A stretch of DNA of 64,000 nucleotides from Bradyrhizobium lablabi (GTDB taxonomy: Bacteria > Pseudomonadota > Alphaproteobacteria > Rhizobiales > Xanthobacteraceae): NCBI RefSeq assembly GCF_018131005.1, contig NZ_JAFCJK010000011.1:124001-188000 (forward strand). The letters are read 5' to 3'. A program made the position numbers and the translations under genes. Under the pieces are notes generated by a model. The model did no database searches, was not told the origin of the DNA, and worked only from the letters and a program-made list of their open reading frames with translations. Each line of letters starts with the position of its first letter. Position 1 is the stretch's first letter. Of this stretch, positions 12,756-20,068 are shown one piece after another.

Positions 12756-12778
12756 GGTGTGTCTCGCGGTTGCTCCGT

Positions 12779-12847
12779 GATGCCCGAGCTTGTTTCGGGC
12801 ACCCGACTTATGAAAGACGTGGATGGCCGGGACAAGCCCGGCCATGA
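12779..12847. repeat. Intergenic palindromic repeat (Bradyrhizobium type), murG-murC
   Basis: Two adjacent hairpins lie in the murG-murC gap. One has TGCCCGA pairing with TCGGGCA across seven bases; the other has ATGGCCGGG pairing with CCCGGCCAT across five. Read in frame, the second gives the GLVPAIHV peptide that is a common artefact of annotating this repeat in Bradyrhizobium. The family attribution is from memory. It separates murG from murC, so it may affect read-through or mRNA stability. Confidence 0.75.
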
Positions 12848-12878
12848 CGCCGAATCGCCAAAAATTCCTCGCGACGGC

Positions 12879-14133: not shown

Positions 14134-15285
14134 CTACGCGTAGGCGCCCGAGGCACTGGCGCCTTCCATCGATTCGATCTCGATGCGCGGCCGCTGCCGG
14201 GTCAGCGCCAGCATCATGCCGACGCCATAGGCGAGCGAGACGATCGAGGACCCACCATAGGAGATGAACGGCAGCGTCATGCCCTTCGCCGGGATCAATT
14301 GCAGGTTGACCGCCATGTTGATCGCGGCCTGCACGCCGAACAGGATGGCAAGCCCGGAGGCAGCGAACCGCGCGAACATGTCGTCGGTGGAATAAGCGCG
14401 GCTCAGGGTGCGGAGCACCACGAAGGCGAACAGCGCGACCAGCATCAGACACAGAATGATGCCGAACTCCTCGGCGGCGACCGCGAACACGAAATCGGTG
14501 TGGCTGTCCGGCAGGCTGCGCTTGGCAATCCCCTCGCCCGGCCCGAGGCCGAACCAGCCTCCGTTCCAGAACGCTTCCATCGCGGTGTCGACCTGGAAGG
14601 TGTCACCGGACGCCGGATTCATGAAGCGCTTGATGCGGCCGGCGACGTGCGGCACCAGCAGATAGGCACCGAACAGGCCGGCGCCTGCCGCGCCCGCGAG
14701 CCCGAGCACCCAGATCATCCGCATGCCCGCGATGAAGAACAGCGCACCCCATACCATCAGGATCAGCATCGTCTGGCCGAAGTCCGGCTCCATCACCAGG
14801 AGCGACACCAGCATCAATAGCAGCACCATCGCCATCGAGGTTGCGGGCATCTCCGGCCGTCTAGTGGATTCGGCGAACAGCCACGCCGCAATGATCACGA
14901 AGGCGGGCTTGGCGGATTCGGAGGCCTGAACATTGACGCCGATCAGCGTGATCCACCGCCGTGAGCCCTTGACCTCCGGCCCGACCAGCAGCGTCGCCAC
15001 GATCAGCACGATGGAGAGCGCGAACACGACGAGCGCGGCACGACGGATCTGCCGCGGCGACATGAAGGACACCGCGACCAGCACCAAGAGCGACGGCGCC
15101 AGGAACATCACGTGCCTGGAAAAGAAGTGGAACGGATCCAGCCCAATGCGGGTCGCGACCGGCGGGCTCGCCGCCAGCGACAGAATGACGCCGCCCAGCA
15201 TCAACGCGAGGATCGCCGCAAGCAGGGGCTTGTCGACGGTCCACCACCAGTCGGAAAACGGGGTGCGTTGGTCACGGGCGAGCAT
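14134..15285 (-). CDS. ftsW: Lipid II polymerase / division protein FtsW
   Basis: SEDS-family peptidoglycan glycosyltransferase of the divisome, partner of FtsI. About ten hydrophobic helices can be traced. Family blocks seen include KGSRRWITLIGVNVQASE, AKPAFVIIAAW, SLLVMEPDFGQTML, HTDFVFAVAAEEFG and GMTLPFISYGGSS. The start MLARDQRTPFSDWWW at 15285 is chosen because upstream in-frame codons are compositionally odd and unconserved. The protein is 383 residues. It lies just downstream of the insert that separates it from murD, so its transcription may depend on a new promoter in the 167 bases upstream. Confidence 0.95.
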   Translation of the reverse strand: MLARDQRTPFSDWWWTVDKPLLAAILALMLGGVILSLAASPPVATRIGLDPFHFFSRHVMFLAPSLLVLVAVSFMSPRQIRRAALVVFALSIVLIVATLLVGPEVKGSRRWITLIGVNVQASESAKPAFVIIAAWLFAESTRRPEMPATSMAMVLLLMLVSLLVMEPDFGQTMLILMVWGALFFIAGMRMIWVLGLAGAAGAGLFGAYLLVPHVAGRIKRFMNPASGDTFQVDTAMEAFWNGGWFGLGPGEGIAKRSLPDSHTDFVFAVAAEEFGIILCLMLVALFAFVVLRTLSRAYSTDDMFARFAASGLAILFGVQAAINMAVNLQLIPAKGMTLPFISYGGSSIVSLAYGVGMMLALTRQRPRIEIESMEGASASGAYA

Positions 15286-15452
15286 GGGCGTCCCCAGATG
15301 GCAGAGGCAATGTCCATTGGTGCCGCAGGATGGTTTCCAAGCGGTTAACGGTTTGTATAACTTTTGAGGAACGCGACCACTGAGACCGCGCTCGCGGCCA
15401 TGGTCCCGGCGAAGGCCGTGGCCGTACCTCGCAGAGGGCGTCATTTTCCAGG

Positions 15453-17150
15453 TTACGGGGAGCGAGCCGGAACTGGCTGATATGTCGCCTGCAGGTTTGG
15501 CGCCAGTTGAGGTCCGGCCGATCCGGTGCGCCCATAGAGCCGTTGAAACAATATACTGATGATAAAACCGCTAAACGCAGCCTGCAACGACGCGAAAGCA
15601 GCTATCTGTAGATCCAGTATGCCAAACGTGGGCGAAAAAACGCTTGGCGAAAGGGTGGTCGCAATGACAGCAGCAGTTGCTTGCGCTGTAGCCTGTATCA
15701 ACGCGAGTCCGACAGACACGCCGGACGACTTCATTGAACGATCAATATACAACCCGATGAAATAGCCAAGAATCGCTTGGTTCAGCGCATAAAGAAATGG
15801 TGCATATGTAAACTGGCCGCCCCGCAAGATCAGACTGAAAATCACGTTAAGCCAAACAGTCGCAAAGTAGGCGAACACAGCAAGCAAGAGATCTTCGGGC
15901 CTGTACTCTCCGTCATCAGTACGCCGCCACTTGCGTTTGCAATAGATGGACAGCCATATCACGATGGCATACGCGAACGTATAGATAACTGCATATCTGA
16001 TGATATCGACTTTACTCGGCATCATGACGGGGTATTTGTCAAACAGTCCTGATAGGTAACCAATCAACACATACAGTCCGTTGAAGGCGAGCATAAGCAC
16101 GAAGGTCGAAGCGCTAACCAGGCCGATTGTATTCCAATCGGATGGAGGCAGCCGATCCACAGTCGTGGAGAAACCCATCTCGCCGATTGCAGAATCGATG
16201 TCCTCGGGATCAAACTGCGTTGCAAAGACTGACAGCGCGACAACGAGGCACAACGTCTCGTAAACGGAGTCGCACCTCGCCTGTAACTCTTGGCGACGCT
16301 CGCTAAGTTCAAGCATCCCTTCAGCATCAGTATTTTCCGAGATGTACGCATCGATGTCCGATGCATCTTCGGGCACGATGCGTTCTTGAGTTCTCAGATA
16401 GCTGATGACCGCAGATCTTATGCTCTGCGATTGCTCCGTCAGAGCCCTGAAGTCCCGTTCCAGCGTTATCTTGAACTCCGTGAATCTCTCGCCCCTACGT
16501 GCTTGCAACAGGCTGCGCAGGCAAAGTATTTCGAACAACCGCTTTTCGAGTACTCCGGCTGCCTTGCCTTCGGCGACGCGGATAGTGTCCCGCATGTTCA
16601 GCATTGATTGAACTGCTCTCCTCACGTCGGGAGGAGGAGAAAATGAGCAATTGTAGAGCTTTTCACCCAGGTTCTTCGCGTCGTCTGGGATGTAAGCGCT
16701 CTTGTGCAAGTTCTCTAAAAGCCAAGCATCGATCTGCTTGATAATGGGAAATGAAGACAAAAGGCCGGTTAAAACAAAAAGCGCCAGGACGACACGATAG
16801 TGCAAGGGTTGGTCGGCCCAATTCGGCAGCTGGACTTTTCCGATCGTGGCGGCGTCTTCAATGACCGAGTGAGCGAACAGAAAAACAAGAAATACGACTT
16901 CAAGAATGAGCACATAACGATAGGCGTAATTGTTGTACCGCGCCCGGGTCGTCGTAAAAATAGGTGGCGTCAGCGTAATGAGCCGAAAAGGCTCACCGCT
17001 CGACAACTCCAGCGAATACTGTGGCGTGTTAAAGTGGCTCAGACCATAAAAGTACAGGACAGCCATCCCAACCGGAACCGTCCAGATATTTGCAAGAAAT
17101 TTTCGACTCTCGTCAGAAACTAGAAGTGAAATTAGATCGTAGACTGACAT
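15453..17150 (-). CDS. Unrecognised multi-pass membrane protein inserted in the dcw cluster
   Basis: I do not recognise this family. With the ATG at 17150 it has 565 residues. Three hydrophobic segments lie at about 22-38, 78-96 and 119-137. A mainly soluble, charged region (about 140-310, probably helical and cytoplasmic) follows, including VLEKRLFEILCLRSLLQARR and ERRQELQARCDSVYE. Some seven further hydrophobic segments come next, the last in LQIAAFASLQAAFSGFII. The tail is Pro/Gln-rich. The reading frame stays open 154 codons upstream, but that stretch looks non-coding. GC content is visibly lower than in the flanking mur and fts genes, which suggests transfer. No catalytic motif is evident. 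Confidence 0.75.
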   Translation of the reverse strand: MSVYDLISLLVSDESRKFLANIWTVPVGMAVLYFYGLSHFNTPQYSLELSSGEPFRLITLTPPIFTTTRARYNNYAYRYVLILEVVFLVFLFAHSVIEDAATIGKVQLPNWADQPLHYRVVLALFVLTGLLSSFPIIKQIDAWLLENLHKSAYIPDDAKNLGEKLYNCSFSPPPDVRRAVQSMLNMRDTIRVAEGKAAGVLEKRLFEILCLRSLLQARRGERFTEFKITLERDFRALTEQSQSIRSAVISYLRTQERIVPEDASDIDAYISENTDAEGMLELSERRQELQARCDSVYETLCLVVALSVFATQFDPEDIDSAIGEMGFSTTVDRLPPSDWNTIGLVSASTFVLMLAFNGLYVLIGYLSGLFDKYPVMMPSKVDIIRYAVIYTFAYAIVIWLSIYCKRKWRRTDDGEYRPEDLLLAVFAYFATVWLNVIFSLILRGGQFTYAPFLYALNQAILGYFIGLYIDRSMKSSGVSVGLALIQATAQATAAVIATTLSPSVFSPTFGILDLQIAAFASLQAAFSGFIISILFQRLYGRTGSAGPQLAPNLQATYQPVPARSP

Positions 17151-18073
17151 GTCGAACCTCCACGAAGAGGGTTGAGCAACGATCCTTATCCCACTATTAG
17201 TTGTCAGCCCGATTGCGCGGTATATGAAATGGCTCACAGTCGGAGCCTTTCTTTTCGGATCGTTATCGGCGGACCTGGGAACTCGTCCAGAATCGATCGT
17301 CCTGAGAACCAACTCCGGATCGCTTTGTTTATCGATCATCCGAGCAAACGGTCGCCAGCGAACTCGGCGATACGTTGCTTGATCGGTTTGGCAAGTGCAG
17401 CCTGTCGTCTTACGCAGCTTCGTGCGGCGAATTTTCCCGACACTACGACCGCTGCGCAATCGATCCGCAGTCGCTAGCCCGCATGAGTGCGGATTGCGAC
17501 GAATGTATTTACCGATGCTCGGCAAGCGAACGTGCCGAAGATAACGGCCAAGAATTTCGCAACCTGAAGCTTCAAACGTGAATCTCGAAAGAGTGATCTC
17601 CGAGTTCAGCAAATTCGTCTATAGACGGCCACATCGCTTCCGGCCAACCATTGCTTCGGAGGTCCGTGAGTTAAGCGACAGAAGGTACACGCTCGTGGAT
17701 CAGCTAATTGCCTCCGCACTCACGAACGGCCGCATGCCTACCGGCAGGCCGGTACGTTCGCCGCGTCTACCCGCCTTCAGCTAACGCAAACACCGCTTGG
17801 CATGGTCACATACACGCGGCCCCTCCACGGTACTTCTTCTACGCGCGCTGTCGAGCGCTCTATCGTGGACGCATACGATGACGAAGCTTTTCATCGTTGC
17901 AGTAGCCGTCGAACAGCAAAGTCATTTGGGACATTGCGTTCTGGACACCGGTGGCGGTCTCGTAGCCATCGATCTTCGTTTAGTGGAGAATTGGAGTTCT
18001 TCCAGTACGTGAGCCCTGGCAATGCGTGAACCAACTCTCCGCGATCGATCCCACCAAGAAAAAGGAGACATAG
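17151..18073. other. Gene-poor part of the ftsW-murD insert
   Basis: About 0.9 kb between the start of the membrane-protein gene and the cupin gene. Several open frames of 60-100 codons exist on both strands, but none shows a plausible fold, hydrophobic pattern or ribosome-binding site. It probably holds two divergent promoters and may include decayed sequence. Composition is lower in GC than the surrounding cluster. Confidence 0.5.
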
Positions 18074-18508
18074 ATGACTGGCGCGCGATCAAAAGAAACT
18101 GGAGGCGAATGGCTGCAAACGAGGCCGGGTGAGCGTTGCCTGATACGGGTTTCCGCTGAGGAAACGAACGGCGCATACTCGATCGTCGAGATCGTCGCCA
18201 GTCCCGGAGATAGCACGCCCATGCACGTTCATCAGAACGAGGACGAGCACTTTGTTATCCTGGAGGGCACGGCACGCATTGCGTGCGGTGACAAGGTAGT
18301 TGACGCCCCGGCTGGGACATCCATGAGCCTTCCGCGGAATGTTCCTCACGCCTGGGGTAACCCTACGAAGTCGCCCATTCGCTTCGTGGTGACGACCACG
18401 CCGGGTGGTGTCGAAGAATCACTTCGCCTGATCGCGCGAGGTGATGTCGACATCATGGCTATCGCTGAGAAATTCAAAGTTCAGATTGTTGGCCCACTGT
18501 TGCTTTGA
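18074..18508 (+). CDS. Small cupin-domain protein
   Basis: A 144-residue single-domain protein. The cupin motif 1 is seen in MHVHQNEDEHFVILEGTA (metal-ligand His, His, Glu and the G of strand turns) and motif 2 in PAGTSMSLPRNVPHAWGN (the last His ligand). Members bind a metal and act as small dioxygenases, isomerases or sugar/ligand sensors; nothing here fixes the substrate. An AAAGGAGA ribosome-binding site precedes the ATG. It is transcribed against the dcw cluster and is part of the insert between ftsW and murD. Confidence 0.85.
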   Translation: MTGARSKETGGEWLQTRPGERCLIRVSAEETNGAYSIVEIVASPGDSTPMHVHQNEDEHFVILEGTARIACGDKVVDAPAGTSMSLPRNVPHAWGNPTKSPIRFVVTTTPGGVEESLRLIARGDVDIMAIAEKFKVQIVGPLLL

Positions 18509-18624
18509 ATACGAAATTCCGTGTCAACGCTCCGATTGGTTTGAGGGCGGAAGGAGACGCGGATCGGGCAGGTAACGCCAGCTTGGGCGTCATCAAGCTG
18601 GTGAAGAGAGCAAGAGGCGAAAGC

Positions 18625-18660
18625 ACGTACGGCGGATTGACAGCGTAATCCGCCGTACGT
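18625..18660 (-). terminator. Perfect 14-bp hairpin between cupin gene and murD
   Basis: ACGTACGGCGGATT pairs perfectly with AATCCGCCGTACGT across an eight-base loop. It ends seven bases from the murD stop codon and lies about 115 bases after the cupin stop, so it sits between converging genes. After the stem the murD strand reads GCTTTCGCC and the other strand GTTGGCTTC, so no strong T run exists on either side. It could be a bidirectional terminator or an mRNA 3' stabiliser. Confidence 0.6.
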
Positions 18661-18667
18661 GTTGGCT

Positions 18668-20068
18668 TCATACGATCGGCTTCACACCTGGCAGCGAATT
18701 GACGAGATCGCGAAACGCCGCGCCGCGGATTTCGAAGTTACGGTATTGGTCGAACGACGCGCAGGCCGGCGACAGCAGCACGACCGCTTCAGGGAGACCG
18801 GAGGCTTCCGCGTCGCGGGCGGCGCTGGCGACCGCGACGTCGAGCGTACCTGACATCTCATGCGGCACGCGCTCGCCGAGTGTTCCGGCAAATTCCTGCG
18901 CGGCCTCGCCGATCAGATATGCTTTGCGGATACGCGGGAAATAGCCGGTCAGACTGGTGATGCCGCCGGCCTTCGGCTTGCCGCCCGCGATCCAGAAGAT
19001 GTCAGCGAACGATGACAGTGCATGCGCGGCCGCATCGGCATTGGTGCCCTTGGAATCGTTGACGAACAGCACGTTCCCGCGGCGACCGACCTGCTCCATG
19101 CGGTGCGCGAGGCCGGGAAAGCTGCGCAGGCCGTTCTGCAGCACGTCGGCGGAAATTCCCATCGCGAGCGCGCAGGCCGCGGCGCACGCGGCGTTCTGCG
19201 CGTTGTGCAGACCACGCAACGAGCCGATGCCACCCAGGCGCGCCACCTCGCGGCGCGCCGCGCCTTCCGCGCGCACGATGGTTTCGCGCTCGACATAGAT
19301 TCCGTCGGGCAGCGGGTTCTTCACGGAGACGCGGACCACGCGCTTGCCCGACTGATCCAGCCGGTCGGCGATATTGCGGCACCAGATATCGTCGACGCCG
19401 ACGATCGATGTACCGCCGTCCTGCACGCCGGCCACCAACCGCTCCTTCACCGCGGCGTAATTCACGAGCGTGCCATGGCGGTCGATATGGTCCTCGGTCA
19501 CATTGAGCAGGATGCCAACCGACGGATCGAGCGACGGACAAAGGTCGATCTGGTAGGACGACATCTCGATCACATGTACCCGTCCCATCCGCGGCGGCTC
19601 CAGCGACAGGATCGCGGTGCCGATATTGCCGCCCATCTGGGCGTCGTAACCCGCGACATCAACCAGATGCGCGATCAACGCCGTTGTGGTCGACTTGCCG
19701 TTGGTGCCGGTGATTGCGACGAACGGGGCGTTCGGCGCGTGGCGCCGCCGCTCGCGGCAGAACAGCTCGATGTCGCCGATCACCTCGACGCCGGCCTCGC
19801 GCGCCTTGAGCACGCTCCAGTGCGGCGCCGGATGAGTGAGCGGCGCGCCGGGGGTGAGGATCAGCGCGGCGAAACCCGCCCACGAGACATTGCGCAGATC
19901 CGCGGTGATGAAGCCTGCTTGGGCTGCCTTTGCGACATTGTCGGCACTGTCGTCGGCGGCGATCACTTCGGCGCCGCCCGCCTTCAGCGCGTGGCAACTC
20001 GCAAGCCCGGAGCCGCCGAGGCCGAACACTGCGACCGTCTTGCCCGCGAATGAGGTAACGGGAATCAT
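18668..20068 (-). CDS. murD: UDP-N-acetylmuramoylalanine--D-glutamate ligase MurD
   Basis: Adds D-glutamate to UDP-MurNAc-L-Ala. The N-terminal Rossmann motif [15 protein letters not shown], the ATP P-loop [16 protein letters not shown] at about residue 115-130, the MSSYQIDL and [11 protein letters not shown] blocks, and the C-terminal [17 protein letters not shown] are all present. The start [11 protein letters not shown] at 20068 gives 466 residues. The open frame runs far upstream into mraY, but those codons are antisense noise. It follows mraY by 11 bases. Confidence 0.96.

Follow-up and report, generated by a model that had tools for sequence, protein, structure and literature searches.

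The 64,000 bp stretch analysed here, referred to below as the window (Bradyrhizobium lablabi contig NZ_JAFCJK010000011.1, positions 124,001 to 188,000), contains a division and cell wall (dcw) gene cluster in which murD (18668–20068, minus strand, Mur ligase domains) and ftsW (14134–15285, minus strand; 383 amino acids, PF01098 E = 2e-72) are separated by 3,382 bp from the murD stop to the ftsW start (15286–18667), with a GC content of 0.536 vs 0.64 in the rest of the window. Directly past the murD stop is a palindrome of two perfect 15 nt arms around 8 nt (18624–18661), which is terminator-like or resembles a repetitive extragenic palindromic (REP) element and of which no second copy was found in the window. 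It is followed by a single-domain Cupin_2 gene convergent with murD (18074–18508, plus strand; 144 amino acids, PF07883 E = 1.1e-15), by 923 bp between divergent genes in which inspection of reading frames and Pfam revealed no convincing gene (17151–18073), and by an orphan gene for a multi-pass membrane protein of 565 amino acids (15453–17150, minus strand), which is co-directional with murD and ftsW and has an intact reading frame starting at an ATG at 17150 preceded by GGAGG. In Pfam, eleven frames in or adjoining the 923 bp, and a long TTG-start form of the membrane protein frame, matched nothing at an E-value below 0.16. Between the membrane gene and ftsW lie a private spacer of 83 bp (15370–15452), without clear alignment to 14 near relatives, and then a promoter-like block of 84 bp that forms the ftsW leader (15286–15369, minus strand); this aligns with the same relatives, is present in compact junctions and is bordered directly by variable sequence. 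Within it is the motif TTAAC-N8-AAC (15333–15348, minus strand), the sole match on both strands of the window, which we call the box and which resembles a binding site for the cell-cycle regulator CtrA.

A sequence-only reading of this DNA had described a low-GC block at 15445–18667 between ftsW and murD, holding a multi-pass membrane protein gene, about 0.9 kb with no convincing gene and a cupin gene on the opposite strand. Both its content and its composition are as described: the GC content of 15445–18667 is 0.532 vs 0.642 for the remaining window, the lowest-GC stretch of that length (3,223 bp) within the 64 kb starts at 15532, and GC at third codon positions (GC3) is 0.58 in the membrane gene and 0.61 in the cupin gene vs 0.82 in murD and 0.89 in ftsW. 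The start of the block had to be moved, since 15286–15369 is an ftsW leader common to relatives; because it aligns with the 14 near relatives compared, it lies outside the insert, and the break begins at about 15370.

The same reading took the block for transferred DNA tolerated in a conserved operon, and comparison with relatives bears this out, as most close relatives do not carry these genes at the junction. When 15460–18620 was searched as DNA against 257 genus genomes, counting the window's own, matches outside it came from six genomes only, all of them inside the cupin gene (window 18104–18504; 67–76% identity), and neither the membrane gene nor the spacer had a DNA match in the 256 other genomes. 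In a DNA tree of murD and ftsW from 71 loci, a sample that is not random as it combines nearly all large junctions (G001 left out) with hand-chosen compact ones and covers 71 of 72 junctions (the flank of L076 was too short), the window is sister to 13 rows, ten of which have only 206–614 bp at the junction. The private content, low GC and short junctions of the nearest rows support the proposal that the 3.3 kb content is private to this lineage among the genomes searched and is an insertion.

Insertion at this junction would not be peculiar to the window. A flank match was present in all 257 genus genomes searched, and in a table compiled by hand for 197 of the 256 other genomes, chosen partly by similarity, the murD–ftsW distance has a median of 251 bp, exceeds 1 kb in 43 and reaches 6.15 kb between matched ends; the 59 untabulated genomes comprise five of the 150 searched a second time (four with flanks on different contigs and one for which the second flank row was unlisted) and 54 that were not re-searched. 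Among 80 named loci, mostly Bradyrhizobium and partly from the same genomes, 75 were measurable and 23 of these exceed 1 kb. A DUF5107 gene is present in 25 of the 59 gaps above 400 bp, and the cargo of other large gaps includes a GDSL lipase, an AbiEii-type protein, a GFO/IDH/MocA oxidoreductase, a GmrSD-like protein, a DUF4238 protein, a radical SAM and TP-methylase pair, two identical DDE transposase genes, a periplasmic binding protein and an FMN oxidoreductase. On the tree, gap size (above 900 bp) requires at least 6 changes and gap contents at least 25, counts that depend on a chosen sample, on cargo labels set by hand and on the contents of single loci being scored as separate states. 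The junction ranges from 166 to 3,382 bp in 21 genomes, window included, that were picked partly for large gaps; as a control, nine of the ten other murE–ftsZ junctions in these genomes are at most 376 bp. The murD–ftsW junction is an apparent insertion hotspot, with unrelated cargo at one site in different genomes. It is like chromosomal integration hotspots in that one site receives unrelated cargo in each strain, and differs from them in lying inside an essential cluster and in having no recognisable integrase site in the window.

Some individual gaps deserve mention. In locus L077 (genome G199) the radical SAM gene and the tetrapyrrole-methylase-family gene are adjacent and possibly form a small peptide-modification cluster, and in L041 (G237) the two identical DDE transposase genes are arranged head to tail. 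A cluster of open reading frames (c5) is read as the reverse strand of the DUF5107 gene, which its five loci carry on the other strand.

Compact junctions are, to judge from these comparisons, the base state. Using six repeat tags picked by eye from the same junction sequences, at least one tag is present in 14 of 17 junctions below 480 bp (4.5 per kb) and in 30 of the 55 larger gaps (0.5 per kb), and the only tag in the window falls in the murD–ftsW junction. Palindromes tagged with GTAG and CGTC (REP elements) have been reported for Bradyrhizobium (PMC3733652). The compact junctions are likewise palindromic, with several tags beginning GTAG or CGTC, and the stretch in the window is poor in them. 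The part of that source available here treats genome-wide repeats and not the murD–ftsW junction, and the junction palindromes are likened to its elements by tag only.

The box is present 61–64 bp upstream of the ftsW start (typically about 62 bp) in 72 of 72 junctions of the genus, including two loci with inserts of about 6 kb, in 79 of the 80 named loci, and 54–68 bp upstream in 18 of 20 genomes representing 15 other genera of the family, with FtsW identity as low as 65%. The pattern was composed with such sequences in view, and conservation of its eight fixed letters is built in; the base that follows was not imposed and is C in all 72 genus loci (TTAAC-N8-AACC) and fully conserved in 18 others (2.0 bits). 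No other copy of the extended pattern exists in these loci, over 613,052 strand-bases. All of 21 clusters compared have the shorter pattern at most 140 bp from ftsW; at that distance from the eleven other dcw genes (murB being covered in 7 clusters only and ftsZ in 20) it is found just once, at a murE. We propose that the block at 15286–15369 very probably has promoter function for ftsW. The sequence-only reading also expected ftsW-murG-murC-murB to need a new site of transcription because of the insert; this is not supported, as a conserved promoter-like block stands between the insert and ftsW.

An apparent physical separation of the two genes is seen in B. jicamae SZCCT0349 (G094; L101 and L102), where ftsW lies at 353 kb of a 506 kb contig with other genes before it and its box kept, and murD at 89–90 kb of a 213 kb contig, both at a distance from the contig ends. 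A similar short open reading frame was noted by eye near the break on both contigs, which suggests a rearrangement between dispersed repeats; an error in the draft assembly may instead lie behind the placement on separate contigs.

The 21 clusters measured all share the gene order murE-murF-mraY-murD-ftsW-murG-murC-murB-ddl-ftsQ-ftsA-ftsZ with the coupled dcw (mra) cluster; unlike in that arrangement, murD and ftsW are uncoupled in the genus and lie up to 6.2 kb apart. In a sample of 45 loci representing other families of the order (the top 25 by score outside the family, plus 20 picked from a list of 147), the two genes overlap or are at most 27 bp apart in 33, are 91–804 bp apart in nine and could not be measured in three; the box was absent within 200 bp of ftsW in all 45. 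In the other genera of the window's own family, 18 of the 19 measured loci have 81–3,040 bp between the genes. The description of this cluster as one of the most conserved operons agrees with the sample from the order, where 33 of 45 loci are coupled, but in this family coupling has already been lost in 18 of 19 measured loci of other genera. By eye, some of the nine uncoupled loci from other families have single GTTAAC-like sequences near ftsW, and four loci of one other family (L292–L295, gaps of 304–804 bp) share a different sequence upstream of ftsW containing GTTAACG, which is perhaps an independently gained promoter.

The box was compared with the CtrA consensus TTAA-N7-TTAAC (PMC7200025, PMC3692519). 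Its first half-site is exact in 72 of 72 genus loci, the spacing is the same and the second AAC is kept. In Caulobacter, ftsW is named as CtrA-regulated (PMC2877005, PMC3973325) and falls with the CtrA regulon (PMC5189948), and a ctrA transcript has been measured in a Bradyrhizobium (PMC7511792). The arrangement described here shares with that of Caulobacter crescentus the same gene and a related type of site, and differs from it in its degenerate second half-site, in being a candidate known from sequence and in having an insertion hotspot upstream. Across the genome to which the window belongs, TTAAC-N8-AACCA has 14 matches vs 4 for the reversed pattern, and TTAA-N7-TTAACC has 18 matches (15 places, three on both strands) vs 4 reversed. 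Six of the 14 matches are at most 300 bp upstream of ftsE, ftsW, fliF, flhA, flgB and an MltB-type transglycosylase gene; FlhA, which is truncated at the locus end, and MltB both score below their cut-offs. The other eight precede unnamed or doubtful genes. Among the full sites, one precedes an AmiC-type amidase gene (Amidase_3, above the Pfam cut-off) and another a gene for a DapC-like transaminase (below the NCBIfam cut-off). On balance, these data incline us to regard the ftsW box as a CtrA site.

We consider it probable that the 3.3 kb was inserted in this lineage alone, at a hotspot of long standing, that the block in front of ftsW acts as its promoter and responds to CtrA, and that DNA landing upstream of that block is nearly neutral. 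Comparison shows that in this family the close coupling of murD and ftsW is gone in 18 of 19 measured loci of other genera and that ftsW has, about 62 bp before its start, a CtrA-like box in a conserved block; in the genus, the interval from the murD stop to the block contains repeats, transposases and unrelated genes, from less than 0.1 to 6.2 kb in all, with the block kept, and the genome analysed here has its own cargo there in the membrane protein and cupin genes. An explanation for this is that ftsW gained its own cell-cycle-type promoter, which would probably also serve murG, and that foreign DNA is hence tolerated just upstream: because ftsW would be independent of read-through from murD, insertions and deletions there would be nearly neutral and would turn over. 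The strain analysed here probably acquired, in the interval from murD to the box, a low-GC piece carrying two genes; these, for the membrane protein and the cupin, are most likely passenger cargo, and the convergent cupin gene together with the palindrome past murD probably stop read-through from murD and so separate its transcription from that of ftsW.

Several observations weigh against this proposal, beginning with the coverage of the table of distances, 197 of 256 genomes chosen partly by similarity. The murG–murC junction also varies, from 102 to 2,402 bp with 6 of 21 genomes above 600 bp (12756–12878 in the window), and a sigma-70 scan of 15100–18800 found no promoter. Within the family, L162, the sole close pair among the measured loci of other genera (murD and ftsW 1 bp apart), has no box, L156 has TTAAT in place of TTAAC, and L291 (gap 75 bp) is without the strict pattern; L227, a Bradyrhizobium, is also one base off with TTAAT. 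The nine uncoupled loci of other families are without the box, and uncoupling therefore occurs also without it. With regard to CtrA itself, the second half-site before the C is GAAA, GTAA, TAAA or GCAA in the commonest variants and not TTAA, the 21 clusters gave no full TTAA-N7-TTAA at 140 bp or less from any dcw gene (murB covered in 7 only), and the Fts complex of Sinorhizobium meliloti is reported not to be under CtrA control (PMC4433202). This half-site degeneracy and the S. meliloti report are what would be expected if the block were an ftsW promoter for another regulator, such as CenR or another OmpR-type protein, or a constitutive one, the likeness to CtrA sites being partial and incidental. 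Chromatin immunoprecipitation sequencing has placed CenR upstream of ftsW in Rhodobacter sphaeroides, although the authors found no CenR motif and an artefact is possible (PMC9275681). We regard this alternative as rather unlikely, as the second AAC stands at exactly the spacing of full CtrA sites, 6 of the 14 matches across the genome stand before genes for division, flagella or murein, and ftsW is in the Caulobacter CtrA regulon list (PMC3973325).

The nature of the insert also allows other explanations. The inserted genes could be more than passengers if ftsW were mainly transcribed from the membrane gene and the product of that gene served envelope biogenesis, and were kept for this reason; the gene is co-directional with ftsW, ends 83 bp before the conserved block and is intact. 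This is improbable, because in 264 other genomes of the genus only one clear homologue of the membrane protein was found (G196, 44% identity), and it is interrupted, because the ftsW block is kept, and because the cargo elsewhere at the junction is unrelated and on the opposite strand in several loci. Another possibility is that a mobile element with its own means of integration, a genomic island or a transposon, carried the block, and one relative has a DDE transposase in two identical copies at the same junction (L041). We think this quite improbable for the window: no integrase or transposase domain was found in the two insert genes or in 11 further frames in or adjoining the spacer, no tRNA gene that might be an integration target was found in the window, and no matching end repeats or long terminal repeats were found at the insert, where the direct repeats near both ends are only 12–15 nt, imperfect and taken as chance. 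The same absences of end repeats, integrase, transposase and tRNA count in turn against the main proposal. A further possibility, an ancestral block that most relatives lost in independent events, is very improbable. A family of weak membrane protein homologues is scattered through the genus (four weak matches besides that of G196) and the order (three weak matches besides the window protein in 297 genomes), which would fit such losses; the clear homologue in G196 is on a different contig from ftsW of that genome, GC3 of the block genes is low, and the membrane gene and spacer are without DNA matches in the 256 other genus genomes.

Gene order in the dcw cluster is a textbook example of conservation attributed to co-transcription. 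The loci compared here provide a natural series, from overlapping murD and ftsW through short gaps to inserts of 6 kb and to genes that lie apparently apart, and along this series tolerance of foreign DNA goes together with a small conserved box; with this series it is therefore testable whether the order of the cluster is kept for expression or for other reasons. More tentatively, the cluster may have been rewired in this family, with ftsW and murG no longer on the murD transcript and made part of a CtrA-type cell-cycle regulon by a new box. The box would then be a transcriptional boundary at which foreign genes can be loaded and swapped, and therefore the supply of lipid II precursor (mur) and its septal use (ftsW-murG) would be timed separately; we hold this wider view with some doubt. 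The box is a concrete candidate for a cell-cycle promoter of ftsW in Bradyrhizobium and its relatives, and Sinorhizobium is reported to differ. The CtrA link of ftsW in Caulobacter and the REP elements of Bradyrhizobium are already in print; in the literature searched, which left most subscription journals outside, no paper was found on the ftsW box described here or on the murD–ftsW junction as an insertion hotspot.

The membrane protein family is rare and without a domain match. The window protein had no Pfam or PADLOC match, and its NCBIfam and PHROG matches were non-significant (E 0.11 and above); two weak sequence matches to solved structures (E 0.0089 and 0.39) were judged to be chance. 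A plasmid search gave no homologue, and a search of genome contigs gave 37 pattern stretches and no relative. An AlphaFold model from an alignment of five rows had a mean predicted local distance difference test score (pLDDT) of 45.9 and a predicted template modelling score (pTM) of 0.35; it is unusable, and no conclusion on the fold is drawn. The open reading frames around the homologues, inspected by eye only, showed no common neighbours; in L108 a radical SAM gene adjoins a distant homologue.

Candidate sigma-70 promoters and terminators near the murD–ftsW junction were rejected, their counts being no higher than in shuffles, and no RNA family of Rfam reached its gathering score in 15200–18800. 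At other junctions of the cluster, the regions upstream of murC (12 of 21 viewed) have palindromic repeats in several genomes by eye, and TTAA occurs there in 0 of 21. The murF–mraY junction of L171–L190 and the window falls into two length classes, of 9–13 bp and 113–179 bp.

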